A stretch of DNA of 46,299 nucleotides from an uncultured Bacteroidota bacterium (GTDB lineage: Bacteria > Bacteroidota > Bacteroidia > Bacteroidales > VadinHA17). The DNA lies in assembly GCA_937864815.1 (NCBI GenBank), contig CALMJY010000235.1, positions 1 to 46,299 of the forward strand, written 5' to 3'. Below, one piece after another: positions 5,347 to 46,299 of this stretch (position 1 is the first letter of the stretch; each line of letters begins with the position of its first letter). A program made the position numbers and the translations under genes. Below the pieces are notes generated by a model. The model saw only the letters and a list, made by a program, of their open reading frames with translations. It had not been told where the DNA came from and searched no databases.

Positions 5347-7062
5347 ATGAAAACAATAGTAAGAAATAATATAAAAAGGTATGGGATGCTGGTAAAGGTT
5401 ACGATACTTACGCTAATAATATCAGTGTTCAGTCAGTCCTGTACAAATCTGGATGAAGAACTTTTCGATTCAGTTACACCGGATAACTTCTTTAAAACCC
5501 AGGAAGAATTTATTTCAGCTCTGGGTGCCGCGTATACACAATTTGGTGATTATGCTTCAAATGATCCATGGGCTTTGCATGAAATTATGTCGGATGAAGG
5601 TGTTTATCCCACAAGGGGTCAGGACTGGGATGACGGAGGAACCCTGAGAAGGGCCCATCTCCATTCCTACAATCAGGAAGATGGCTATTTCAACGGTGGA
5701 TGGAATTTCGGATTCGGTGGTGTAAACACTGCCAACAGGCTGATATTCCAGTTCCAGAGCCTTGTTGAAAGCGGAAAAGTTGCACAGGCAGACGCAGATG
5801 CCTTCATTGCTGAACTTCAAACTGTAAGAGGGTTCTTCTACTGGCAGCTTATTGACTGGTTTGGTAATGTACCTCTTGTAACAGATTTCGAAACTGCCGA
5901 TGCTGCACCGCCAACCAAAACAAGACTTGAAGTGTACAACTTTGTAGTCGGGGACCTCGAGGCAGCTGTTCCGAAGTTGTCAAAAGCAGTTGATGGTTCA
6001 ACCTATGGCCGTATGAACTACTATGCAGGACAGGCGCTTCTGGCAAAACTTTACCTCAATGCCAAAGTGTACAGCGGAACTGCACAGTGGACTAAGGCTA
6101 TTGCAGCCTGCGATGCGATAATCAACTCAGGCAAATACACACTTGAAAGCAATTATTTTGCAAATTTCAATGTGAATAATTCAGGCTCCAAGGAGTTTAT
6201 CTTTGCCATACCCTATGATGAGGTATTCTTCCAGAACTTCAATCTTGCTGTACGCACACTGCATTATGGCAGCCAGCAGACATATAACCTGACCGCACAA
6301 CCCTGGAACGGCTTCTGCGCGATGGAGGAGTTTTACAAGTCATACAGCGATGCTGATATACGTAAAGGTGATGTTGGTACAGTTACCGGTCCTGCAACAA
6401 AAAGAGGTAACTTCATTGCCGGATATCAGTATAAAGCAGGAGGAGGAAAGGTTATGGATGACGGATTTGAAGTAGCTCAGCCTAACAGGGCCCCTGTGCC
6501 ACTTCTCGGAGATCCCGATGGTGCTCCCCTTAATTTCGGTAATATTGGCTCAACCCAGCCGCAGATCAATGAACTGGGACCACAGGCATATCGCCAGGCA
6601 GGTGTAAGAGTCGGAAAATGGGAAATTGCACTTGGAAGTCAGCCTAACAACATGAGCAATGATTATGCCGTCTTCCGGTACGCCGATGTACTCCTTATGA
6701 AAGCTGAAGCTCTCTGGCGTAATGGCAATACTGCCCAGGCGCTTACTCTCGTCAACCAGGTAAGAGCCCGTGCAGGTGTACCTAACCTTACTTCACTTGA
6801 TGGACCCGTCAGCTATGACATGACTGGACCATCCGTACAAGGAGGTGAATTACTTAATGAAATAGGAAGGGAGATGTTCGCGGAGAACCACAGGAGACAG
6901 GATCTCATCCGCTGGGGATTGTATAATGAACTTGAGAAATGGATCCTGCCGTTTTATAACCCGGGAGATGTTGTGAAAAAGGGAGAATATCTTACAATCT
7001 TCCCGATTCATAAGGACAAATTAGCTGCTAACCCTAATCTTAAGCAGAATACCGGATATTAA
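5347..7062 (+). CDS. SusD/RagB-family surface glycan-binding lipoprotein
   Basis: A 571-residue protein with a lipoprotein signal peptide whose lipobox Cys is residue 32 (VFSQSC). The mature N-terminus TNLDEELFDSVTPDNFFKT is typical of SusD. The helical TPR-like fold follows (AELQTVRGFFYWQLIDWFGNVPLVTDF around 160-185) and the conserved C-terminal block appears near the end (YADVLLMKAEALWR; REMFAENHRRQDLIRWG; FPIHKDKLAANPNL). SusD caps the SusC barrel on the cell surface and binds the glycan. It is encoded 19 bp after susC, certainly co-transcribed, and a strong hairpin follows at 7081-7126. No frame damage is visible. Confidence 0.96.
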   Translation: MKTIVRNNIKRYGMLVKVTILTLIISVFSQSCTNLDEELFDSVTPDNFFKTQEEFISALGAAYTQFGDYASNDPWALHEIMSDEGVYPTRGQDWDDGGTLRRAHLHSYNQEDGYFNGGWNFGFGGVNTANRLIFQFQSLVESGKVAQADADAFIAELQTVRGFFYWQLIDWFGNVPLVTDFETADAAPPTKTRLEVYNFVVGDLEAAVPKLSKAVDGSTYGRMNYYAGQALLAKLYLNAKVYSGTAQWTKAIAACDAIINSGKYTLESNYFANFNVNNSGSKEFIFAIPYDEVFFQNFNLAVRTLHYGSQQTYNLTAQPWNGFCAMEEFYKSYSDADIRKGDVGTVTGPATKRGNFIAGYQYKAGGGKVMDDGFEVAQPNRAPVPLLGDPDGAPLNFGNIGSTQPQINELGPQAYRQAGVRVGKWEIALGSQPNNMSNDYAVFRYADVLLMKAEALWRNGNTAQALTLVNQVRARAGVPNLTSLDGPVSYDMTGPSVQGGELLNEIGREMFAENHRRQDLIRWGLYNELEKWILPFYNPGDVVKKGEYLTIFPIHKDKLAANPNLKQNTGY

Positions 7063-7080
7063 TCACATTATTTGAAATTT

Positions 7081-7126
7081 ATCAAAAGAGAGCAGGCAAT
7101 CATTATATTTGCTTGCTCTCTTTGAT
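7081..7126 (+). terminator. Strong stem-loop after susD (terminator/attenuator)
   Basis: AAAGAGAGCAGGCAA (7085-7099) pairs with TTGCTTGCTCTCTTT (7109-7123) over 15 bp with one G-U wobble around a 9-nt AT-rich loop. The arms end in an A run and a T run, so the structure could terminate in either direction. It lies 22 bp after the susD stop and 29 bp before the next gene, so it probably attenuates rather than fully separates expression of the downstream lipoproteins. Confidence 0.7.
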
Positions 7127-7154
7127 TTAATAACATTTTATTCTGCCTGACTGC

Positions 7155-10100
7155 ATGTTTAAATCAAGTATCAAAGCCATCAGGGCAATAATAATTTTAT
7201 TGATACCTTTTCTTTTTTCATGCCTCAGGGGAAGAGATGATAATTCGCCTGATCAGCTTTTCACATTACTTGACCAGGAAGAAACAAAGATTGACTTCAT
7301 AAATCAGGTTAAGTACACCGAGGAATTCAATACCTACACATACAGGAATTTCTATAATGGCGCAGGTGTAGGAACAGGTGACTTCAATAATGATGGCTTG
7401 CAGGATATTTACTTTTGCGGTAACCAGGAAGGAAACAGGCTCTACATTAATAGTGGAGGATTCGTTTTTGAAGATATTTCCGAAAAAGCAGGTGTAACAT
7501 GTAAAGGATCATGGTCAACAGGAGTCACTATAGTTGATATCAATGGAGACGGATGGGCTGATATTTATGTATGCAAATCCGGTCCTCCGGAGGGTAAAAA
7601 CAGAAAAAATGAATTATTTATTAATAATAAAGATCTGACATTTTCAGAGAAGGCATCCGAATACGGACTGGACAATTTCGGGTTATCCAATCATGCATCA
7701 TTCTTTGATTATGACAGGGACGGGGACCTTGATTGTTATCTTCTTAACAATTCATTTCAATCGGTTACCGGTTTTGATATGAAAGAGGGCCAGCGTGAAA
7801 TCTCCGATTCACTCGGTAGTAACAAGCTTTTCAGGAATGATGACGGCAAATTTACAGATGTAACAAAAGCAGCAGGTATTTATTCAAGTAAAATCGGATT
7901 CGGACTTGGTGTAACTGCCGGCGACGTCAACCGTGACGGCTGGATTGACATATACGTATCTAACGATTTTTTTGAGAGAGATTACCTGTATATAAATAAC
8001 CAAAATGGCAATTTCACGGAATCTCTTACTGATCAGATGAATGAGATTAGCCTGGGCGCCATGGGTGCCGATATGGCTGATATAAATAATGATGCCTGGC
8101 CTGAGATATATACAACAGAGATGACTCCTGAAGATAATGCCCGCCTTAAGACCAAGGCTTTTTTTGAAAACTGGGAAACCTACCAGAGAAAAGTCGGTAA
8201 GGGTTATCATCATCAGTTTGCCAGAAATACACTTCAGCTGAATAACAGAAATGGTACCTTCAGTGAAATTGGCCGGTTCAGCGGTGTCAGCACGACAGAC
8301 TGGAGTTGGGGAGCCCTTATAATGGACCTTGATAATGATGGGTGGAAAGATATCTTTGTTGCTAATGGTATCTATAAAGATCTCCTTGACCGTGATTTCC
8401 TTGATATTTATTCTGATCCGTCTATAATGCGGACAATGATCAAAACAGAAGAATCAGCAATTATTAAAATGATTGAAATGATTCCGTCTGCCAGGATTTC
8501 AAATTACCTATTCCATAATAATAAGGACCTTACATTTACCAATATTGCTGCTCAGTGGGGCCTGAACACACCTTCTTTTTCTAACGGAGCAGCTTATGAT
8601 GACCTGGATAACGACGGGGATCTTGACCTTGTTGTAAATAATATTAATATGCCTCCCTTTATATACTGTAACAACTCTGAAAGCAAATCCACCTCGCACT
8701 ATCTTAATGTATCTCTAAACGGAGGTGGTAAAAATACTTCAGCTGTCGGAGCAAATGTCACCTTGTATTATGATGGCTCAGTCAATTACCAGGAATTAAT
8801 CCCCGCCAGGGGTTTTCAATCAAGCAGCGGAAGCAGGCTTCATTTCGGACTCGGAGAACATTCCCTGGTTGATTCAATTATTGTATGCTGGCCTGACGCG
8901 GGAACTACAAAATTGATAAATGTAAAAGCAGATCAGTTTATTACAATATCGAATAGCGAAAAAACAGGTAATGTCCCTTGTAAGATAAAAGAGACAAATA
9001 CCATACTAAAGCGAACAGACAGATTTTCTGATCTCGATTTCAGGCATATTGAAAACGATTTCAATGATTTTGAACGTGATGGACTTCTTTTCAATATGTT
9101 GTCAAATGAAGGTCCCCATATGTGTATCGGAGACATAAATGGTGATGGAACAGACGATCTATATATTTGCGGGGCCAAAGAAAGTCCGGGAGCATTCTAT
9201 ATACAGCTCAGAAACGGAACATTCAGAAGAACTAATACTGAAATTACTGAAGCTGACAAAATATCGGAAGATACTGACTGTGCATTTTTTGATGCAGACA
9301 ATGATGGTGATCTCGACCTTTATGTAGCCAGCGGAGGCAATGAATTCCCTTCAAGTTCCTCTGCCCTGATAGACCGGCTTTACCTGAATGACGGGAAAGG
9401 TAATTTTTCAAAATCTGACCAGATGCTTCCTTCATCAGAATATGTAAGTACCTCCTGTGTAAGGCCTGCCGATTTTGATAAGGACGGAGATATGGATCTC
9501 TTTGTTGGAACAAGATTGCGCCCATTTGCATATGGCCTCCCTGCTGATGCTTACCTTCTTGAAAATGATGGAAGGGGGATTTTTAAAAATGTTACAATCA
9601 AAAATGCTCCGGATTTAAAAAACATGGGAATGATTACGGATATGGCATGGTCTGATATTGATAATGATGGTTTTGCCGATATTATCATTGTCGGGGAATG
9701 GATGCCTCTGAAAGTCTTCCTTAATAAAAATGGAACCTTTGCTGATGTTATGGAGCAATGCGGATTACTTAACACTGAAGGATGGTGGCATACCATTGAA
9801 GCAAAAGACCTTAACAGGGACGGGAAAACAGATTTTATCCTCGGTAACCACGGATTGAATTCCAGGTTTAAAGCATCACCTGAGAAACCGGTTAAAATGT
9901 ATGTCAACGATTTTGATCTTAACGGAACCATTGAACAGATAATTTGCACATATAATGGTGAAAAAATGTACCCGCTTGTAATGAAAGACGACCTTGTAAA
10001 GCAAATACCATCACTCCGGAATAAATTTCAGAAATTTGATGACTATAAAAATGTTACGATTGAGGAAATCTTTCCACCGGAGGTTCTGAAAAGATCAGTA

Positions 10101-10481
10101 ATACTTGAAGCAAACATCATGGAAAGTTGTGTACTTATGAACAATGGCAACTTATCCTTTACGTTAATACCACTTCCTTCTGAAGCACAGTTTTCTCCTG
10201 TATATGCAATCAGTGCAGAGGACTTTGACAGGGATGGAATCTGTGATATCCTGATCGGGGGAAATCTGACAAGAGCAAAACCGGAAACCGGAATCTACTC
10301 AGCCAGTTATGGACTTTTATTAAAGGGGAAGGACAACGGTTTGTTTGAACCTGTTCCATCAATAACTTCGGGGATCTCTGCAAAAGGGGAAATAAGGGAT
10401 CTGCAACTTATGAATATTAATGGAAACATGATTATTGTTGTTGCAAGGAATAATGATAACTTACAATTTTACAAATTTTGA
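7155..10481 (+). CDS. Double FG-GAP/VCBS-propeller lipoprotein with central ASPIC/UnbV domain (paralogue A)
   Basis: A 1108-residue lipoprotein with lipobox Cys23 (LFSC). The N-terminal half has seven Asp-rich calcium-loop motifs (DFNNDGLQDIY, DINGDGWADIY, DYDRDGDLDCY, DVNRDGWIDIY, DINNDAWPEIY, DLDNDGWKDIF, DLDNDGDLDLV). An ASPIC/UnbV domain follows at about 528-597 (SAVGANVTLYY, RGFQSSSGSRLHFGLG). Seven further motifs follow, starting DINGDGTDDLY and ending DFDRDGICDIL. Seven plus seven suggests two seven-bladed beta-propellers joined by the ASPIC domain. The family (CRTAC1/VCBS-type) has no established enzymatic role; here it occupies the place where SusE/SusF-type surface glycan-binding lipoproteins usually follow SusD. 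A binding role at the cell surface is inferred. The gene overlaps the next one by 4 bp (ATGA). Confidence 0.85.
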   Translation: MFKSSIKAIRAIIILLIPFLFSCLRGRDDNSPDQLFTLLDQEETKIDFINQVKYTEEFNTYTYRNFYNGAGVGTGDFNNDGLQDIYFCGNQEGNRLYINSGGFVFEDISEKAGVTCKGSWSTGVTIVDINGDGWADIYVCKSGPPEGKNRKNELFINNKDLTFSEKASEYGLDNFGLSNHASFFDYDRDGDLDCYLLNNSFQSVTGFDMKEGQREISDSLGSNKLFRNDDGKFTDVTKAAGIYSSKIGFGLGVTAGDVNRDGWIDIYVSNDFFERDYLYINNQNGNFTESLTDQMNEISLGAMGADMADINNDAWPEIYTTEMTPEDNARLKTKAFFENWETYQRKVGKGYHHQFARNTLQLNNRNGTFSEIGRFSGVSTTDWSWGALIMDLDNDGWKDIFVANGIYKDLLDRDFLDIYSDPSIMRTMIKTEESAIIKMIEMIPSARISNYLFHNNKDLTFTNIAAQWGLNTPSFSNGAAYDDLDNDGDLDLVVNNINMPPFIYCNNSESKSTSHYLNVSLNGGGKNTSAVGANVTLYYDGSVNYQELIPARGFQSSSGSRLHFGLGEHSLVDSIIVCWPDAGTTKLINVKADQFITISNSEKTGNVPCKIKETNTILKRTDRFSDLDFRHIENDFNDFERDGLLFNMLSNEGPHMCIGDINGDGTDDLYICGAKESPGAFYIQLRNGTFRRTNTEITEADKISEDTDCAFFDADNDGDLDLYVASGGNEFPSSSSALIDRLYLNDGKGNFSKSDQMLPSSEYVSTSCVRPADFDKDGDMDLFVGTRLRPFAYGLPADAYLLENDGRGIFKNVTIKNAPDLKNMGMITDMAWSDIDNDGFADIIIVGEWMPLKVFLNKNGTFADVMEQCGLLNTEGWWHTIEAKDLNRDGKTDFILGNHGLNSRFKASPEKPVKMYVNDFDLNGTIEQIICTYNGEKMYPLVMKDDLVKQIPSLRNKFQKFDDYKNVTIEEIFPPEVLKRSVILEANIMESCVLMNNGNLSFTLIPLPSEAQFSPVYAISAEDFDRDGICDILIGGNLTRAKPETGIYSASYGLLLKGKDNGLFEPVPSITSGISAKGEIRDLQLMNINGNMIIVVARNNDNLQFYKF

Positions 10482-11113
10482 TGAGACATATGAAAAGGAA
10501 TTTCAGGAATGCTGTTTATCTGATAATTATCATTTTTACTGGTACTTCAGGATGTACTCCGAGGGCAAAATATGAAAGAAAACTGAAGCAGGAACTCGCA
10601 ACAGGAATCAGATATGATTCACTCTTCCTTGGATTGTACCTTGGTATGTCACAAAAGGATTTTTATACCCGCTGCTGGGAGCTTAACCGGATGGGTCTTG
10701 TCAAGCAGGGAATTGGCAATACCACAGTTGAATATATTATAAAGGATGAGCTGAAACACTCCGTTACTATGAATTTCTATCCGGCATTCATTGAAGGTAA
10801 AATTGCAGAAATGCCTGTGAAATTTATATACAATGGCTGGGCACCATGGAACGCACCTCTGTCGTCTGACAGTCTGCAGGTTGATTTGCTTGACCGGTTT
10901 AAAGAAACCTATGGTGAAGATTTCATAAGAATAGACCACAGGAACAGAGGAACTGCTTATGTTCTTGTAAACGGGAACCGTCGTATAACCATTTTCAAGG
11001 AAAACGAGATGAATGTCTGGGCTGTTTTCAGTGATATGACTGTAATTAAGGAGCAGAGTGATACCTCAAATACAGTCAATACACCTTTTAAAATACCGGA
11101 GACCAGTAAATAA
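10478..11113 (+). CDS. Small lipoprotein of unknown function
   Basis: A 211-residue protein with a lipoprotein signal peptide (hydrophobic stretch about residues 13-24, lipobox TSGC, Cys26). The mature part has no domain I recognise. It begins with a helical charged segment (RAKYERKLKQEL), then GLYLGMSQKDFYTRCWELN, a pattern seen in small Bacteroidota lipoproteins of unknown role. Beta-rich sequence follows (VKFIYNGWAPWNA, NRRITIFKENEMNVWAVFSDM), and a Ser/Thr-rich tail ends the protein. It overlaps the upstream paralogue A by ATGA and is followed after 4 bp by paralogue B, so it is translated with them and probably works in the same surface complex. The first ATG (10478) is used for the overlap; internal Met2 or Met5 are alternatives. 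Confidence 0.75.
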   Translation: MMRHMKRNFRNAVYLIIIIFTGTSGCTPRAKYERKLKQELATGIRYDSLFLGLYLGMSQKDFYTRCWELNRMGLVKQGIGNTTVEYIIKDELKHSVTMNFYPAFIEGKIAEMPVKFIYNGWAPWNAPLSSDSLQVDLLDRFKETYGEDFIRIDHRNRGTAYVLVNGNRRITIFKENEMNVWAVFSDMTVIKEQSDTSNTVNTPFKIPETSK

Positions 11114-11117
11114 CATC

Positions 11118-14100
11118 ATGAAAAAATCCTTTTCTCCTGTATTTATATTTCCGGCAACGGCTCTGTTGTGTATATCCGTATTCATGTTTTCCTGCAGCAA
11201 GGATAAAGCCGGAAATGGTGATCTCTTATTCACAACCATGCCTGCTTCAGTTACCAATGCCGGTTTTGTTAACCACCTTGACTACAACAAACAGCTGGAA
11301 ACAAAATTCAATATTTATACCTACAGGAATTTCTATAATGGTGGCGGGGTGGCTCTCGGCGATATTAATAACGATGGTCTCATTGATATCTTCATGACTT
11401 CCAATATGGGATCAAATGTTTTGTACCTCAACAAGGGCAACTTTGAATTTGAAGATATATCGAAAAGTGCCGGAATTGAAGGGAAAGGCCGCTGGTCAAC
11501 TGGAGTAAGTTTTGCAGATGTGAACGGGGATGGTTGGACAGATATCTATATATGCAATTCAGGAAATGTGGAAGGAGATGACAGAAGCAATGAATTGTAT
11601 ATAAACAACAGGAATCTCACATTCACCGAAAGTGCAGCGGAGTATGGTCTTGATGACCGGGGTTACTCAACCCATGGTGTTTTTTTTGATTATGACAGGG
11701 ATGGGGACCTTGACATGTATCTCCTTAATAATTCGTCCAAGGCAATTGGTAGTTTCAACCTCAAGGATAATCAGCGATATGTCAGAGATTCACTTGGAGG
11801 AGACAAGCTTTTCAGAAATGATTCCAACAGGTTTACGGATGTTAGTCAGGAAGCCGGAATTCTGGGAAGTGTAATCGGATTTGGTCTGGGAGTTTCTGTC
11901 GGGGATATTGATCAGGATGGATGGATGGATATATACGTGTCAAATGATTTCTTTGAAAGGGATTATCTCTATCTGAACAATCATGACGGAACGTTCAGGG
12001 AAAACCTCCCTCAGATGATGAGATCGATTTCAGCTGCTTCCATGGGCGCCGATATGGCAGATATTAATAATGACCATTACCCGGAAATATTTGCGACTGA
12101 TATGGTCCCTGAGGGTAATGAAAGGCTAAAGACAAAGACAACTTTTGATAGCTGGGAGAGCTATAAATCAGGTGTTAATAATGGTTATCACCATCAGTTC
12201 ACAAGAAATATGCTGCAACTGAATAACACAGATGGAACATTCAGTGAAATCGGCAGGTTTGCCGGCGTAAATGCTACAGACTGGTCATGGGGTGCATTGA
12301 TTATGGATATGGATAATGATGGTCTAAAGGATATTTTTGTGGCAAACGGTATTTTCAAGGATCTGACAGATCAGGATTACCTGCAATATTTTTCAAACCG
12401 TGATATGGTTATGAAAATTGTCTCCGGAAACAACGTAGATTATAAGACTCTTATTGATGCAATACCTTCTGTGAAAATACCCAGCTATGCCTTCAGGAAC
12501 AATGGCAATTACAATTTCACCAATGTTGCAGATAAATGGGGTCTTGGCGAACCGGGATTTTCAAACGGTTCAGCATACGGAGATCTTGACAACGACGGCG
12601 ATCTTGACCTGGTTGTAAACAATGTCAATATGCCTATGTTTGTATACCGCAATGAAACGAACAGGTTGTTACCCGACAATCATTACCTGAAGTTGATGCT
12701 TAACGGGGAACCAGGGAATACAGCTGCTATAGGGGCAAAAATCACTGTAAAACATAAAGGCCGGATACTTTACCTTGAACAAATGCCGATGAGGGGTTAC
12801 CTCTCAACAAGTGATCCCCGGCCAAACCTGGGACTTGGAAACATCTCCATTATCGATTCACTCATTGTTCAGTGGCCAGATGGACGAATGACTATTCTAA
12901 AGGATGTAGTTGCAGACCAGACTCTTACTCTGTTTCAGAAAAATGCCGGATTAGTATCAAATAAAATTACTGATTCGCTAAACAGAAAAAACCTGTATTT
13001 CAGGGAGATAACAGATAAAAATCTCATCAGTTTTAATCATAGTGAAGATGACTTTAACGATTTTGAAAGGGAATCATTAATATATCATATGATATCCACC
13101 GAGGGACCCAGGATGTGCAAAGGAGATGTTAACGGTGACGGCCTTGAAGATTTATTTATTTGTGGTCCAAAGGGACAAGCTTCTGTTTTAATGGTACAAC
13201 AGAATAACGGAAAGTTTAAATCTATAGAATCCGGGTTATTTGAACAGGATGCCATTGCTGAAGATGTTGACTGCGCAATGTTTGATGCCGACGGGGACGG
13301 CGATCTTGACCTGTACGTAGCTTCAGGTGGTAACCAGTTTCCGGAGAGTTCCTCAGCGTTGAGTGACAGAATGTATTTCAATCAGGGGAATAATCATTTT
13401 ATTAAATCAGATCAGGTTCTGCCTGCAGGCAGGTATGAGAGTTCTTCCTGTGTCAGAGCAGAGGACTTTGACAAGGACGGAATTGTTGAATTGTTCGTAG
13501 GCATCAGGCTTAAACCATTTCTTTATGGAGTTCCTGTGAACGGATATATTCTTGAGAATGACGGAAAGGGGAAATTTACTGATGTTACTGGTTCTGTAGC
13601 ACCTGAACTGCAAAAAATCGGAATGATAAGGGATATGCTATGGCTTGATGTGGACAAAGATGGAGACATGGACATCATAATTGCCGGAGAATGGATGGGA
13701 ATCAGGGTGTTTATTAATGATAACAACACCTTCAGGGAGAAAAAAGATGCATTTGGATCATCTGTAACTGATGGATGGTGGAATTGTCTTGCTGCAGCTG
13801 ATTTTGACAATGATGGCGATGTCGATTTTGTTGCAGGTAATCATGGTCTGAACTCAAGATTCAAGGCAACCCAGGAAAAACCGGTTACAATGCATGTTAA
13901 TGATTTTGATCTGAACGGCGCCGTTGAACAGATCATAAGTGTATATAACGGCGATCAGTCCTACCCTCTTGCCCTGAAGCACGACCTTACAAGGCAGATT
14001 CCTGCACTCGAAAGAAAATATCCAAAATATGAATTGTATAAAGATCAGAAGATAACAGATATTTTCCCGCCGGAGCAACTTCAAAAATCAATTGTTCTGA

Positions 14101-40225: not shown

Positions 40226-40234
40226 CAACCACAT

Positions 40235-40282
40235 TGCGGGGTGGATCCGCCGGCTGGCGGATCGTTGGGCTCATAACCCAAA
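40235..40282 (+). pseudogene. Truncated initiator tRNA copy with palindrome in place of its D-arm
   Basis: TGCGGGGTGGA (40235-40245) and CGTTGGGCTCATAACCCAAA (40263-40282) are identical to the acceptor 5' strand and the complete CAT anticodon arm of the intact tRNA at 40298-40369. Between them the D-arm is replaced by a perfect hairpin, GATCCGCC / GGCGGATC with loop GGCT. The T-arm and acceptor 3' strand are missing, although CCTC and ACAAA after 40282 look like relics of the tRNA 3' end. It cannot make a normal tRNA. Confidence 0.75.
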
Positions 40283-40297
40283 CCTCACAAAAGATAG

Positions 40298-40369
<72 letters not shown>

Positions 40370-40388
40370 CAAAGCAGAAATACAGAAG

Positions 40389-41312: not shown

Positions 41313-42050
41313 CTAATATAAAGCAGCTATGTTAGTCGAAATTTTTTGCAGTTCGTTTTTAAAAAATTGGCGGCCATAATAAGAAATAGGCTTAACGCCG
41401 CCAATTAAGTTAAGATGCTTAGTTATATACCTTGTCTTATCCTCGAAAGCGTTTTTAAACAACCCTTCATTTTCTTTAATAAAGTCCAAGATTCCTATTA
41501 CTGCTTCCTTATGGCGCCCTAAATTATAAGAACCTAAGGTCCTTGTTGGGAAGTCTAATTGGCGAAATAAGATCTCAGTTAATTCGTACTTATCTCCTCT
41601 TGTTTCGTCCACCGATAAAAACACAGCCCACCATAACCCTGATAAAGCATGCCTAAGTAACTCGCTATGAATTGTTGATTTTAGAAACCAATGATCAAAA
41701 ATATAGCTTCTACTATCCTTGGCCGTTCCCAAGTAAGCTGAATTCCACCTTTTAATCATATAAGGGTATAAATCAACGTGAGATAGGTATGTCCAAAGCC
41801 TTTCATCTGAGGCTTGAATTGGTTCAAGATTCTTAAAAGCCTCATAAAGTTGAATTGCAGATTCAAAATCACTCTGAACATTGAGTCTCAGTGAGAGGTT
41901 TTCCGGTTTTCTGATATTTGGCATCATCAGAGTCTCCTTCTTATCATAGATAAACTCGTTACTCCTGTATAATTCCACAGATGTTCCATCCTCAATGTTT
42001 TTTTTGAGTTGAAACAAGTATTTTTCTCGAAAAATCAATTGCTTTTCCAT
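41313..42050 (-). CDS. Unknown protein of the GHKL/methyltransferase island (possibly DUF6339-like)
   Basis: A 245-residue soluble protein with no signal peptide or membrane segment. I start it at ATG 42050, one base after the upstream stop; a TTG 36 bp earlier would force an overlap. It is mostly helical and rich in aromatic residues (LWTYLSHVDLYPYMIKRW, FDHWFLKSTIHSELLRHALSGLWW). The LWTYLSH...RHALSGLWW pattern reminds me of DUF6339-type proteins found near restriction genes, but that is recollection, not a search. No nuclease motif is evident. Last gene of the leftward four-gene operon, so it probably acts with the GHKL ATPase. Confidence 0.7.
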   Translation of the reverse strand: MEKQLIFREKYLFQLKKNIEDGTSVELYRSNEFIYDKKETLMMPNIRKPENLSLRLNVQSDFESAIQLYEAFKNLEPIQASDERLWTYLSHVDLYPYMIKRWNSAYLGTAKDSRSYIFDHWFLKSTIHSELLRHALSGLWWAVFLSVDETRGDKYELTEILFRQLDFPTRTLGSYNLGRHKEAVIGILDFIKENEGLFKNAFEDKTRYITKHLNLIGGVKPISYYGRQFFKNELQKISTNIAALY

Positions 42051-42051
42051 C

Positions 42052-42918
42052 TTAATAATCTTCAGTTTCGTTTGGTTGTTCAACAATGACCTGCAATTCC
42101 GATATCAACCTCTTAAATGGGTTACCAAGTAATTTCTGGGCTATTTCAGGAATGTCTTCATTTTCATTTATTGATAGGGATGCAAACTGTTTTTCATTCC
42201 TAAGACGATAATCGATTACTTTAGCCCACAAACAATCTTTGTTTGCCTCAAAATTATATAGCGCCGATACTAAAGCATTTTGAACAATTGATGAATGAAA
42301 AATAGGGGCAAATTTGGTTTCTTTTGAAATACTTTCATTCGCAAATATCATATATTCCTGAGTCGGAAGCTGCACCTCAATCTTACTTTTAGAAAAATCA
42401 TAGTTTGTGAATATTGCATTTGGGTCTTTATTCTCAACTACTTCCATAAATGTCGATACTGCCTTAAGCTTTTCATATTTGATATCAGCATCGAATTCAA
42501 ATTTCCCAAAGAAGGCTAATACATCTCCAGGTTCAATATCAAAATTGTATCCTTCATAATCAGGATGAGACAAACTGTTAGAATAATTTGCAATTGATGT
42601 CTTCGCAACGATTAGACAGGTAAAACTGACCTTCCCTTTTACTAGTTTTTTCTCAATTTCGAACTTGATTTGATTATTGTCGCTCTTAAAACAATCTCGA
42701 AATAGGGTATTTGAACAGGTAGCTTCGCAATAGTATTCAACAACACCCATCTGTAATAGTCTTTCAATATCCGGATTATTATGTTCGCACATCACGCTGA
42801 TGGCGTAAGAATTACCCTCAGATAAAATTTCCGGTTCGGGGCTAAATCCTATTGTACTATTAATTGCATCTCCGACACCCAAAACGGGATGCGGAAAAGA
42901 AACATCATTGAATCTCAT
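42052..42918 (-). CDS. Unknown protein of the GHKL/methyltransferase island
   Basis: A 288-residue protein starting at ATG 42918 (MRFNDVSFPHPVLGVGD), overlapping the GHKL gene's end by 14 bp; a TTG further upstream is rejected. The first 160 residues are beta-rich with FPHPVLG at the start and paired Cys residues (EYYCEATCSNTLFRDCF) that might bind metal or be incidental. The second half is helical (SIVQNALVSALYNF, AQKLLGNPFKRLISEL). I do not recognise a family. Tight coupling to the ATPase gene suggests a physical partner, perhaps a DNA- or target-recognition subunit; this is inference only. Confidence 0.75.
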   Translation of the reverse strand: MRFNDVSFPHPVLGVGDAINSTIGFSPEPEILSEGNSYAISVMCEHNNPDIERLLQMGVVEYYCEATCSNTLFRDCFKSDNNQIKFEIEKKLVKGKVSFTCLIVAKTSIANYSNSLSHPDYEGYNFDIEPGDVLAFFGKFEFDADIKYEKLKAVSTFMEVVENKDPNAIFTNYDFSKSKIEVQLPTQEYMIFANESISKETKFAPIFHSSIVQNALVSALYNFEANKDCLWAKVIDYRLRNEKQFASLSINENEDIPEIAQKLLGNPFKRLISELQVIVEQPNETEDY

Positions 42919-44872
42919 AGGTCTTAATTTTAACAGTATGCTTAAGGTTGTCTGCAAATTTTATTTTAATAACATTCTTGCCGGAAAATAACATAGCATT
43001 CAGAATTTTATTCTTATCAACATTACCATTGTCACTTGATGCAAGTGCAATTCCATCGTCTTTGTCATTATCTGAACTTACCAGTAATTCTATTTCAGCA
43101 TTTGTGATATCTTCATCAGATTTTATAATTAAATAATGGTATAGAAACCCGTCCTCCCTTTGGGCAGCAACACTTAAACGTACTTTCTTCAATACTTTGC
43201 TCTCAGTTGGTACATCAGTTGAAGATCCTCTATTTAGGTCATCTGACCCAGGAGGTATTGGATGCTCTTGACCATTTGCACTTTCGCCTTGTCCGTAAGT
43301 TACTTCTAAAGCTCCTTCTGCATCAGGTATGACATCTTCAGCTCCTTTTATTTCTGTTTTGGTTTTAATCTTTGGTTTAATCGAGACAGGATTTTCGATA
43401 TCGGTTGTTTGCATACCTGTCTCATCTTTGGTAATACCGGTGGATAAATCACCTGTCTTGTTCTCTGTCTCACCTCTTAAATCCGAATCCTCATCCTTTT
43501 CCAGTAGGTCTTCGGGGATAGATAAATAATCCTCCAAACCCAGAAATGCAACTTTCTTACTTGTGTTTGTTTTTGAAAGTGAATCCAGCTTCGAATTAAT
43601 GAAATTACTTAATTCCAGCTCTGCTTTTCTTGCAATGGTATCAATCTTACCTTCTGTCTGATGGTTCTCCTTTCTCCATTCATTATGTGCGGGATTTTCT
43701 AATTGTCTTAGAATTTCATTACCGTTTTCATCGTCACAAATAAAGACTGCGGCGTACCCGTTTATTTTTCTGTTTGTTCTCTTAAATACTACCATTTTAG
43801 GTTTTCTGAAAAAGGAAGTCCGATTTGGAAGTCCCTTTTCCAAATAAACGTACAGCCTCACCTTGCCAAGAATTTCAAGTTCCTCCGTAAAAATTTGAAA
43901 TTGGTCATTCGCACCTGAATATTTGACTGCTTTATAATAGGGTTTAGGATTCCAGGTCTCAATGTCACTTGCGTTTCCGCTTTCATATTCATTTGGAAAG
44001 TATTCATCAATTATTTGTTCGAGATTTTCTCTACTAATTATGATATCATTTATCTTTACGATGAGGTTCTTATCGTGAATCGCAAGCCAAAAATTATTAA
44101 GTACAGATTTTACCATCAACCTGTTTCTGTCGACATCCTCCCACAAACCAATAATATTAATATCCGTACCGATTTCCTCCCTTCTAAACATTTCTGGGAT
44201 GTTATCTTCAATTACCGTGGGTTCGCCGCTATTATTATCATAAAATCCATATGCAGTTAACTTTTCCCCATTCCCATTCCTATGGGTTGTAAGCCAAGTT
44301 GCCCCTTCAAAGTAGACATTATTGTTGGTATCTCTTGAAGACACAATTATTGTTTTTATTGGTGATAAAACAAAATAAGCTCCCTTTCCAAAACCGAAGG
44401 ATCCTCCTGCTCCGCCTATCATTTTTATACTAACCCCTTTTGACCTTAAAAAAGCATAGAATGGTGATTCAGTTTCACTTTGAACATATGGCATCCCTTT
44501 AGTATTCGAATCGGAAATTTTTAGACATGAAATTTTAAGTTTCTTCTTGCCTTTCTCTGTGCCATTTAAATATGAGAGCATTCCATCAAAAAGAATTTTG
44601 GCATCTCTGTTATTTTTATAAAATTCATTAGACTTGATAATGTGTTCTTCTAATTGAAACAAGCCAGGGTAATTGACCCTATCTAAATCGAAGTATGTGA
44701 AATTGACCTTAACCGGAGATAAATTATCGTTGACTACATCCAGGGAATTTTGAATTGCTTCCCTGACTATTGAATAATAGGGATTCCCTTTATATGTTTG
44801 ATGTATCGGGTCATTAGGCCCAATATCTACACCGCCTTCGTTTCCGAAGTACCATTTACACCCTTTTTCCAT
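42905..44872 (-). CDS. GHKL-type ATPase (MutL/Hsp90/MORC-like) of a restriction-type island
   Basis: A 655-residue cytoplasmic protein whose first ~250 residues form a GHKL (Bergerat) ATPase. The N box is REAIQNSLD with Glu38 and Asn42, the G1-type motif is DSNTKG (Asp121), the G2 glycine lid is GGAGGSFGFGKGAYF (153-167), and GTDINIIG (from Gly235) supplies the last motif. A middle beta region (about 330-420) resembles the transducer part of such ATPases. It is followed by a charged, low-complexity linker (about 470-570) and a small beta-rich C-terminal domain. GHKL ATPases of this class accompany DNA methyltransferases and Vsr-type nucleases in restriction-like clusters, as here. The ATP-driven step it powers is unknown. 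Confidence 0.85.
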   Translation of the reverse strand: MEKGCKWYFGNEGGVDIGPNDPIHQTYKGNPYYSIVREAIQNSLDVVNDNLSPVKVNFTYFDLDRVNYPGLFQLEEHIIKSNEFYKNNRDAKILFDGMLSYLNGTEKGKKKLKISCLKISDSNTKGMPYVQSETESPFYAFLRSKGVSIKMIGGAGGSFGFGKGAYFVLSPIKTIIVSSRDTNNNVYFEGATWLTTHRNGNGEKLTAYGFYDNNSGEPTVIEDNIPEMFRREEIGTDINIIGLWEDVDRNRLMVKSVLNNFWLAIHDKNLIVKINDIIISRENLEQIIDEYFPNEYESGNASDIETWNPKPYYKAVKYSGANDQFQIFTEELEILGKVRLYVYLEKGLPNRTSFFRKPKMVVFKRTNRKINGYAAVFICDDENGNEILRQLENPAHNEWRKENHQTEGKIDTIARKAELELSNFINSKLDSLSKTNTSKKVAFLGLEDYLSIPEDLLEKDEDSDLRGETENKTGDLSTGITKDETGMQTTDIENPVSIKPKIKTKTEIKGAEDVIPDAEGALEVTYGQGESANGQEHPIPPGSDDLNRGSSTDVPTESKVLKKVRLSVAAQREDGFLYHYLIIKSDEDITNAEIELLVSSDNDKDDGIALASSDNGNVDKNKILNAMLFSGKNVIKIKFADNLKHTVKIKTYEIQ

Positions 44873-44878
44873 GAGATT

Positions 44879-45112
44879 TTATTTTATAAATTTGAAGCCG
44901 CCGCTAGATGACTTGTTGAGATTCTTATCATAAAGTACTTTCGTTTCCTTCAAAATCTTATTAATTTCCCTGAACATCAATTCCACATCTTTTTCCGAAT
45001 ATTCATAATTGTTTCTATTTGAGCAGTTACCTAATAATCTCAATAAATCAATAATTTTTTGTACTCTTTTAGAGGCAACCTTTTCAAATCTTAGCCGCTT
45101 AAATGAATCCAT
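44879..45112 (-). CDS. Small 77-residue helical protein, first gene of the island operon
   Basis: A 77-residue basic protein, MDSFKRLRFEKVASKRVQ then KIIDLLRLLGNCSNRNNYEY, ending in a Gly/Ser-rich tail. Two predicted helices flank a conserved-looking LLGNCSNRxNYEY turn and SEKDVELMFREI. I recall similar short proteins next to restriction-modification genes but cannot name a function. It starts at the divergent promoter region and lies 6 bp before the GHKL gene. Its size and position would suit a regulator or an accessory subunit. Confidence 0.75.
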   Translation of the reverse strand: MDSFKRLRFEKVASKRVQKIIDLLRLLGNCSNRNNYEYSEKDVELMFREINKILKETKVLYDKNLNKSSSGGFKFIK

Positions 45113-45138
45113 ATGTCAATTATGGTTAATATGAAATA

Positions 45139-45172
45139 CAAATATATAAATTATATTGATATATATTCCAAA
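45139..45172 (-). promoter_or_regulatory. Candidate promoter of the leftward island operon
   Basis: On the minus strand TATATTTG (45139-45146) matches the -7 consensus, with TTTG (45169-45172) 22 bp upstream. The 95-bp AT-rich gap (45113-45207) must also hold the promoter for the divergent vsr-like gene, so the two arms of the island may be co-regulated. Confidence 0.45.
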
Positions 45173-45207
45173 TATATTTACTATATTTATATTTTGTAGT
45201 TACAAGG

Positions 45208-45639
45208 ATGGACAAGCTTACCAAGGAACAACGGAAAAGAAATATGCAGTCTGTAAGAAATAAGGGGTCGAAAATTGAGACTACTTTAGGTAAATTTTTA
45301 TGGGAGAAAGGCTATCGATATAGAAAAAATGACAACTCCGTCTTTGGGAAACCTGATTTTGTATTTAAAAAATTAAAGGTTGCTGTATTTTGTGATAGTG
45401 AGTTTTGGCACGGAAAAGAGTGGGATAAAAGAAAACGCGAACACAAAACAAATATTGATTTTTGGTATAAGAAGATATCAAGGAATATTGAACGAGATAT
45501 TGAAGTTAATAAGAAGCTGAAAAGTGAAGGCTGGCTAGTCCTAAGATTCTGGGGTAAAGAAATTGAAAAAAATACTTTACTTTGTATTGAGAAAATTGAC
45601 CAAGCTATTCAATGCAGAAAAACGCAATTAAGGCAGTAG
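45208..45639 (+). CDS. Vsr-like endonuclease lacking the zinc site
   Basis: A 143-residue Vsr-fold nuclease. The N-terminus TKEQRKRNMQSVRNKGSKIE, the catalytic GKPDFVF (Asp50), FWHG (His68) and FWYKKISRNIERD all match very-short-patch repair endonucleases. However, the four zinc ligands of E. coli Vsr (Cys66, His71, Cys73, Cys117) are here Glu65, Lys70, Trp72 and Lys117. Classical Vsr nicks T:G mismatches made by Dcm. In this GHKL-containing context the protein may instead be the restriction nuclease. It overlaps the methyltransferase gene by 28 bp, so the two are coupled. Confidence 0.88.
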   Translation: MDKLTKEQRKRNMQSVRNKGSKIETTLGKFLWEKGYRYRKNDNSVFGKPDFVFKKLKVAVFCDSEFWHGKEWDKRKREHKTNIDFWYKKISRNIERDIEVNKKLKSEGWLVLRFWGKEIEKNTLLCIEKIDQAIQCRKTQLRQ

Positions 45640-46299
45640 ATTTTTTTTGTTCCGGAGGAGGAATGACAAAAGGTATGACTCTCGCTGGGATTAAAGTCAT
45701 TGCCGGAATTGACAACGATCCTAATTGTAAAGAGACTTATGAGGTTAACAACAAAGGGTCAAAATTTATTCTTGCAGATGTTTATAATCTGAAAGAGAAA
45801 GAACTTAAAAAAGAATTGGGCCTGAGAAAAAAGGATGATAATCTTCTATTTATAGGGTGTAGCCCCTGTCAATTCTGGTCAATAATTAGGACCGACAAGA
45901 AAAAGTCGGAACAATCTAAATCTCTTCTCATAGAGTTCAATCGATTTGTAAAATATTTCAAGCCCGGATATGTTGTTGTGGAAAATGTCCCTGGAATTGC
46001 GAGCCGAAAAGAAGAAAGCGGTCTTTCTGAATTTGTTGATGGTCTTGAAAGCAAGGGTTACAAAGTGACTTTTAAGAATGTAAACTTAAATGATTACGGT
46101 GTGCCTCAGACAAGGAAAAGGTTTACTTTACTTGCTTCCCGGTTAACAAAAAATCCAATATTCCCCAAACCCGCAAGGAAAAAGAAAACCACCGTAAAAG
46201 ATTTCATCGGAGAAGGAAACGGTTTCCCTAAAGTTGAAGCCGGTCATCAGGATACAACTAGGTTTCACCATACTGTTGCAGCTCTAAGTTCTAAAAATC
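45612..46299 (+). CDS. DNA cytosine-5 methyltransferase (3' end outside window)
   Basis: The frame opens at ATG 45612 inside the vsr-like gene and runs off the window after 229 residues. Motif I is VDFFCSGGGMTKG (SAM binding), motif IV GCSPCQ with catalytic Cys86, motif VI ENV (Glu124), and motif VIII QTRKR (166-170), in the normal C5-methyltransferase order. The target-recognition domain and motifs IX-X lie beyond the edge, so specificity cannot be judged. It should protect host DNA from the island's nuclease, or create the mark the system reads. Confidence 0.93.
   Translation, partial: MQKNAIKAVDFFCSGGGMTKGMTLAGIKVIAGIDNDPNCKETYEVNNKGSKFILADVYNLKEKELKKELGLRKKDDNLLFIGCSPCQFWSIIRTDKKKSEQSKSLLIEFNRFVKYFKPGYVVVENVPGIASRKEESGLSEFVDGLESKGYKVTFKNVNLNDYGVPQTRKRFTLLASRLTKNPIFPKPARKKKTTVKDFIGEGNGFPKVEAGHQDTTRFHHTVAALSSKN

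Follow-up and report, generated by a model that had tools for sequence, protein, structure and literature searches.

A conserved module around a putative GHKL-type ATPase, associated with exchangeable cytosine methyltransferases, at the end of an uncultured Bacteroidota contig

The window analyzed here is a 46,299-nucleotide stretch of an uncultured Bacteroidota bacterium that makes up an entire contig (CALMJY010000235.1; C235 of genome G000). Its last 5 kb hold an island of two divergent operons, the leftward one encoding a small protein (S), a putative GHKL-type ATPase (A) and two further proteins (B and C), and the rightward one a Vsr endonuclease (V) and a C5-cytosine DNA methyltransferase (M). 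We found that A, B and C recur in fixed order in distant genomes, often beside a methyltransferase, and that they form one inherited unit, while the sequence specificity carried by M is exchangeable. A, B and C are already catalogued as the PADLOC candidate anti-phage system PDC-M33, so the set itself is not novel; the window adds a well-delimited member of this system, the S component and evidence for partner swapping.

A first-pass annotation, made from the sequence alone, had described two divergent operons sharing a 95-bp AT-rich gap, with a methyltransferase gene overlapping that of a Vsr-like nuclease. All six reading frames were confirmed at the coordinates it had claimed, as follows.

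44879-45112, minus strand: S, 77 aa, first gene of the leftward operon, supported by homologues and position
42905-44872, minus strand: A, 655 aa, putative GHKL-type ATPase, PDC-M33A, supported by PADLOC, motifs, hhalign and alignment
42052-42918, minus strand: B, 288 aa from M14, PDC-M33B, supported by PADLOC (8.8e-53) and AlphaFold
41313-42050, minus strand: C, 245 aa from a later ATG (M13), PDC-M33C / DUF6339, supported by Pfam, PADLOC and AlphaFold
45113-45207, no strand: intergenic region, 95 bp between the divergent operons, 84% A+T
45208-45639, plus strand: V, 143 aa, Vsr very-short-patch mismatch endonuclease, supported by TIGR00632 and PF03852
45612-46299, plus strand: M, C5-cytosine DNA methyltransferase, N-terminal two thirds, ending with the contig, supported by PF00145

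Read from their first starts, B spans 42052-42957 (301 aa) and C 41313-42086 (257 aa); the B start at M14 is kept in 87 of 87 aligned sequences. The A and B genes overlap by 14 bp in the window, and V and M by 28 bp.

A collection of genomes from 84,980 species was scanned with an alignment of A, and the best 80 of 236 confirmed relatives were kept; relatives outside this collection came from viral contigs (3 loci), plasmids (22 records) and annotated phages (1, an unannotated metagenomic record). The loci are therefore best A matches biased to close relatives, not a random draw, and many end at contig ends. Homologues of B and C were detected in 90 and 87 of 97 loci, and those of S, V and M in 44, 31 and 64; for the 89 loci with longer flanks, all of which hold A, the corresponding numbers are 86 and 84, and 41, 31 and 63. 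Across the loci the genes keep the order S-A-B-C on the same strand, with A and B overlapping in 78/84 pairs and a B-C gap of at most 50 bp in 83/83 (loci with A of at least 540 aa), and ABC is translationally coupled. The module occurs in Bacteroidota, Bacillota, Pseudomonadota, Patescibacteria, Planctomycetota, Deinococcota, Actinomycetota and others. Since the same gene order is found in loci of many phyla, a chance arrangement is ruled out, which settles the doubt raised in the first-pass annotation that unrelated genes might merely sit together here. In a draw from the phylum, A was present in 9 of 395 genomes, including that of the window; at the other 8 loci profiles matched B in 4 and C in 6, and in the four loci with no B match the B position is taken by an unrecognised gene of about 250-330 aa. 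One locus (L130 of G394, 8372-11160) appears broken, A being divided over three frames of 76, 439 and 106 aa and B over two, next to a full-length C.

The distance matrices of B and C correlated with that of A at 0.948 (81 loci) and 0.93 (82 loci), followed by S (0.781, 39 loci), V (0.722, 25 loci) and M (0.626, 53 loci), with a permutation p of 0.001 for all five pairs. The methyltransferases of 53 loci fell into 15 clusters at 45% identity, and mapping these onto a quick tree of 85 A proteins takes a minimum of 21 changes, where 14 would be the lowest number possible; two loci (L030 and L034), for example, share 69% in A and 22% in M. ABC is thus one inherited unit with an exchangeable methyltransferase. 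This argues against ABC having a fixed recognition sequence of its own, and favours ABC either borrowing M as its reader or acting downstream of any restriction-modification (RM) system.

The PADLOC models PDC-M33A (6.8e-97), PDC-M33B and PDC-M33C (3.7e-37) match A, B and C of the window, adjacent and in order, membership being judged by the three gene models together. No PADLOC model matched S, and the methyltransferase/Vsr partner is likewise added here. The intact N, G1 and G2 motifs that the first-pass annotation had read in A proved well conserved: each of the residues E38/N42/D45 (N box), D121/T124/G126 (G1) and G157/G160/G162/K163 (G2) is present in 98.9-100% of 92 aligned homologues. 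A Pfam scan of A returned no significant family, neither GHKL, HATPase_c nor HEF_HK, while a profile of 20 A homologues gave an hhalign alignment spanning the motifs to three proteins that contain HATPase_c_3 (E 8.4e-5, probability 60%). An ExxxH motif (E392, H396) is invariant in 100% of the 92 aligned homologues; residues of about 475-565 are poorly conserved and are followed by a conserved C-terminal segment.

In their account of such ATPases, Iyer, Abhiman and Aravind (2008, PMC2292703) describe ExxxH, strongly conserved towards the C-terminal end of the S5 domain, as the mark of paraMORC2 proteins, and a GhXhhpXXRhl motif in the S5 domain as that of MORC proper. They assign paraMORCs to RM operons that also encode cytosine methyltransferases and Vsr, suggest that these proteins loop DNA, and regard the transposon-silencing MORC proteins of eukaryotes as likely descendants of such RM-linked systems. 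The first-pass annotation, too, had pointed to MutL/MORC-like GHKL ATPases in RM neighbourhoods. A resembles paraMORC2 in its GHKL motifs, in an ExxxH that lies after the N-terminal ATPase part within a putative S5 fold, and in its cytosine methyltransferase/Vsr neighbourhood. It differs in that no SFII helicase was recognised in the window island and that its best matches here are from Bacteroidota, whereas paraMORC2 is described as mainly cyanobacterial and Gram-positive (PMC2292703). A appears paraMORC2-like by its ExxxH, a class placement made on one motif and not on a tree with the 2008 sequences. The HEF_HK/Response_reg_2 paraMORC systems, as presented in PMC8011034, likewise have GHKL proteins beside a C5-methyltransferase and Vsr, but A of the window matches neither HEF_HK nor HATPase_c, and no response-regulator-like gene was noted. 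HEF_HK-type genes do lie near 3 (phmmer) or 4 (cluster 10) ABC loci; those of cluster 10 stand beside or near the methyltransferase in L021, L022, L028 and L038 (Pfam run on L021 only), which shows that a second GHKL system may be housed close to ABC. In paraMORC3/VcSduA (Shedu type I-D), reported as anti-phage in PMC12137116, a GHKL domain is likewise proposed to control the attack on DNA, but VcSduA has its own PD-(D/E)XK nuclease, and A of the window has no Shedu (DUF4263) match in Pfam or PADLOC. Other, HEPN-fused paraMORCs are also placed in RM neighbourhoods (PMC3710099).

The RM link of GHKL ATPases dates from genome context in 2008 (PMC2292703). Since the ABC module is compact, widespread and often swaps methyltransferase partners, it offers a tractable model and a good target for learning how GHKL ATPases help restrict foreign DNA.

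We tentatively favour the reading that S, A, B and C form one ATP-driven accessory or effector complex that takes its self/non-self decision from the neighbouring RM system or methyltransferase. M would mark the cell's own DNA with 5-methylcytosine, and V would repair the T:G mismatches arising by deamination of these marks. A, as a dimerising paraMORC-type GHKL clamp, may close on or remodel DNA using ATP together with B and C, B serving as a putative beta-sandwich scaffold and C as the helical DUF6339 partner of A. Such a complex would have no sequence reader of its own; the adjacent RM system or methyltransferase would make the self/non-self call, and the complex would block or disable DNA that is unmarked or cut. 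The gene set, its order and coupling, co-inheritance, the methyltransferase link and the frequent exchange of methyltransferase type are observed; that the proteins assemble, bind DNA and use ATP, that specificity comes from the neighbour and that the module defends against phage is inferred. The multi-subunit system proposed in the first-pass annotation stands as far as a conserved, RM-associated module with fixed order in distant genomes is concerned; the part in which the ATPase and unknown proteins control Vsr is not supported.

M or V lies immediately beside the block in 48/89 loci, and 4 further loci have an adenine methyltransferase. In the phylum sample, M was found in 6/8 and V in 5/8 A loci (7/9 and 6/9 with the window), compared with M in 2/20 and V in 0/20 control stretches around Shedu genes, where both M stretches overlap and come from one genome (Fisher p 0.0007 for 7/9 vs 2/20; p 0.0018 for 6/8, without the window). 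The controls were taken around 20 of the 32 Shedu places among the matches listed, some being shorter at contig ends (one 3.5 kb), and the phylum background is 0.91 C5-methyltransferase matches per genome (356 in 390). Restriction endonucleases (REases) beside the block, drawn from the loci and from annotated plasmids, include HpaII, the EcoRII C-terminal family, MutH/Sau3AI-like, LlaJI-like with an AAA partner, DUF2357/PDDEXK_7, HNH_2, type IV and AlwI-like enzymes, the last annotated so with a Pfam score just below the cut-off. On Lactococcus conjugative plasmids (L134/L135), ABC lies between an AlwI-family restriction enzyme and AbiGI/AbiGII.

Several points weigh against our preferred reading. 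No C5-methyltransferase or adenine methyltransferase resembling the seeds was found in 22/89 loci; four of these (L029, L057, L081, L086) carry a relative of an REase-system seed and several end at contig ends, but others have long flanks in which nothing was recognised, so that a methyltransferase is no obligatory partner. The shared location with RM genes may in part be a by-product of defence islands. The 89 loci are the best A matches and not a random draw. The assignment of A to the GHKL type comes from motif and profile comparison only. Finally, we found no experiment on the module, and the open PMC full text does not mention 'PDC-M33' or 'DUF6339', subscription papers and preprints lying outside this coverage.

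The best-surviving alternative, which we nevertheless consider unlikely, is that ABC and S together constitute the dedicated restriction arm of a system in which M provides modification and specificity, through a nuclease hidden in B or C or through disabling DNA without cutting it. Searches with eight REase-system seed proteins found no relative in 44 of 63 M loci, and M-(V)-S-A-B-C islands with no REase recognised alongside occur in Patescibacteria as well as in the window genome. However, at least 4 of the 44 (L016, L066, L077, L082) hold a gene of an REase-containing cluster, and further REases may be hidden. For the M-only loci, 98 neighbour proteins from 21 loci and two from the contig C311 were compared with PADLOC and Pfam (102 were collected; one 1938-aa protein and an FG-GAP protein were left out), and since the results list the 25 most frequent families out of 222 and 114, single REases may have gone unseen. 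ABC also adjoins complete type II systems, which speaks against its being a restriction half. S is found more often where an M locus has no listed REase (27/44 vs 3/19, Fisher p 0.001), but a tie of S to REase absence was rejected, as a tree-aware test did not support it (median p 0.5).

The proteins B and C, which the first-pass annotation could not place, bear directly on this alternative. Pfam and PADLOC identified no nuclease among S, A, B and C, nor did the structure search point to one in B or C. B has no significant Pfam family, whereas C belongs to PF19866 (DUF6339, 3.1e-52). Structure models, a check suggested in the first-pass annotation, were built with AlphaFold. B (69-sequence alignment, pLDDT 91.7, pTM 0.66) is predicted to combine an Ig/FN3-like beta sandwich at residues of about 12-145 with a helical half at about 186-280, and C (70 sequences, pLDDT 95.3, pTM 0.91) is predicted to be almost entirely helical. 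Foldseek gave no solved-structure match at E 0.001 for either model: B had weak generic matches to common sandwich arrangements only, and C had no clear match among solved structures (Foldseek/VIA). In C, A80, W86, W140 and W141 are invariant and D61, H91, Y97, R101 and N214 nearly so. The confident C fold with no solved relative found, together with the conserved D61, H91 and R101, speaks for this alternative; the conserved residues are not known to form a nuclease motif, but they may belong to a new active site. Longer DUF6339 proteins with an extra C-terminal part were also seen (L057, 667 aa; L083, 468 aa; L054, 460 aa; L131, 471 aa); the extra part is possibly a fused effector, and Pfam gives DUF6339 alone for the L131 protein.

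A further reading, likewise unlikely, is that M-S-A-B-C acts as an RM system lacking a classical nuclease, in which a GHKL clamp complex would sense the missing M mark and silence or dismantle foreign DNA mechanically or via a new nuclease fold in DUF6339, with S as a small general activator or inhibitor subunit of several unrelated defence GHKL lineages.

That ABC is an independent defence or stress system which merely shares defence islands with RM genes seems improbable to us. It would account for the 22 loci in which a methyltransferase went undetected, for the modest co-inheritance of A and M, and for the AbiG and Shedu genes among the neighbours and the Gabija-like genes beside other S-GHKL pairs. 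The methyltransferase linkage, however, exceeds that of Shedu in the same phylum (7/9 vs 2/20), and in more than half of the loci (48/89) the block directly adjoins M or V.

Two explanations centred on Vsr fare worse. Vsr enzymes repair the T:G mismatches that arise when 5-methylcytosine is deaminated. V of the window, called Vsr-like in the first-pass annotation, is a bona fide and ordinary family member (149.9 bits against a TIGR00632 cut-off of 97.85; PF03852, 1.9e-29), and V and M are ordinary overlapping members of Dcm/Vsr-type pairs, the sole difference noted being the adjoining ABC operon. V is absent from 58/89 loci and always accompanied by M where present (31/31). Since V occurs only with M, as a role in 5-methylcytosine repair predicts, V is probably a repair companion of M and unlikely to be the effector of the module. 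The proposal of the first-pass annotation that A and the unknown proteins control Vsr as a methylation-protected or methylation-directed restriction nuclease is accordingly very unlikely, even though Neisserial MutL, also a GHKL protein, is reported to bind Vsr and speed its cleavage (PMC6116569) and a Caulobacter Vsr-like protein is described as inducing the SOS response once a cytosine methyltransferase is lost (PMC12907096). By analogy with these two cases, V may possibly have a role in self-protection costs. Least credible of all is a 5-methylcytosine-maintenance module in which ABC is a MutL-like helper of Vsr repair with no defence role: a MutL-like ATPase class and Vsr do share one locus, but most ABC loci lack V, and some ABC loci (L019, L033, L040, L083) adjoin adenine-methyltransferase systems in stretches that have no C5-methyltransferase.

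The small protein S has no match among the models of Pfam, PADLOC or NCBIfam. It lies directly upstream of A on the same strand in all 44 loci that have it, the spacing ranging from a 131-bp overlap to a 44-bp gap (first-start frames), and in 25 sequences R16 and Y36 are invariant and the C-terminal end is mostly FKF/FKL-like. S was found in 10 of 72,556 plasmid records, seven of which were opened: it precedes A in Deinococcus, Priestia, Planococcus and Arthrobacter, and another GHKL-like gene in Agrobacterium, Dinoroseobacter and Ensifer. Among 390 genomes of the phylum, 8 gave an S match, four before A and two before other GHKL-like genes (L124, L125); one of the remaining two (L123) has no GHKL-like gene nearby, and the other is weak and was not opened. 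The A profile did not match the proteins downstream of S in Agrobacterium and Ensifer; the GHKL-like label of the genes other than A downstream of S comes from motifs, sub-threshold HATPase_c_3 matches and weak profile matches, and that of the Ensifer gene from motifs read by eye. These neighbourhoods suggest that S likely serves several GHKL lineages. New here are that S is part of the ABC operon and that it precedes other GHKL-like genes too, which provides a new handle. On the Agrobacterium and Dinoroseobacter plasmids (L104/L105, around 7000-13700), S and a 621-aa GHKL-like gene lie near Gabija-like genes for an AAA/OLD-like ATPase and a UvrD-like helicase.

M matches PF00145 (6.4e-38) and also dcm, with its N-terminal part in the window. 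The window copy is 65% identical to residues 6-237 of a complete M (L023), and the start of another contig of the genome, C311 (L113), matches residues 261-358 of that protein at 63% identity, a third match in the genome being distant. The C311 frame runs open from the first base of the contig to position 351 (G000:C311:1-351), with about three residues missing between the two pieces. Since these are complementary, C235 and C311, which are unjoined in the assembly, are probably neighbours, with the C311 start as the M C-terminus. The first 20,000 of the 23,029 bases of C311 were read, the four genes after M being scanned with Pfam and later ones judged by eye. The first-pass annotation had supposed that further subunits, such as a helicase or second nuclease, might follow to the right; C311 continues instead with an NYN-domain protein, a 120-aa protein with no family, an FG-GAP lipoprotein and a transposase, past which the genes look metabolic or transport-related, and no helicase or known restriction enzyme was seen in these 20 kb. 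A cognate REase was recognised on neither side of M (right, the four Pfam-scanned genes; left of C, by eye), though one of an undescribed family may be present. The NYN-domain (RNase-like) protein (481-1122) lies directly 3' of M and scores 23.5 bits (8.8e-5) against a cut-off of 24.2; it has no phmmer homologue in other ABC loci at 1e-5, and NYN occurs in 3 of 100 neighbouring proteins among the Pfam families listed, the C311 protein presumably being one.

The G+C content of the island is 35.0%, compared with 39.3-42.7% in same-sized windows elsewhere in the contig, and this higher A+T content suggests that the island was probably acquired horizontally. A tRNA-Met gene at 40298-40370, 0.9 kb past C, was considered as an integration site and rejected as unproven: a search for a further copy of its 23-base 3' end found none in the genome when up to 1 mismatch was allowed, and none within the initial 20 kb of the right-hand contig when up to 3 were. 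Inspection by eye showed a degenerate partial copy of tRNA-Met with an inserted G+C-rich hairpin (40234-40370) just before the real tRNA-Met gene.

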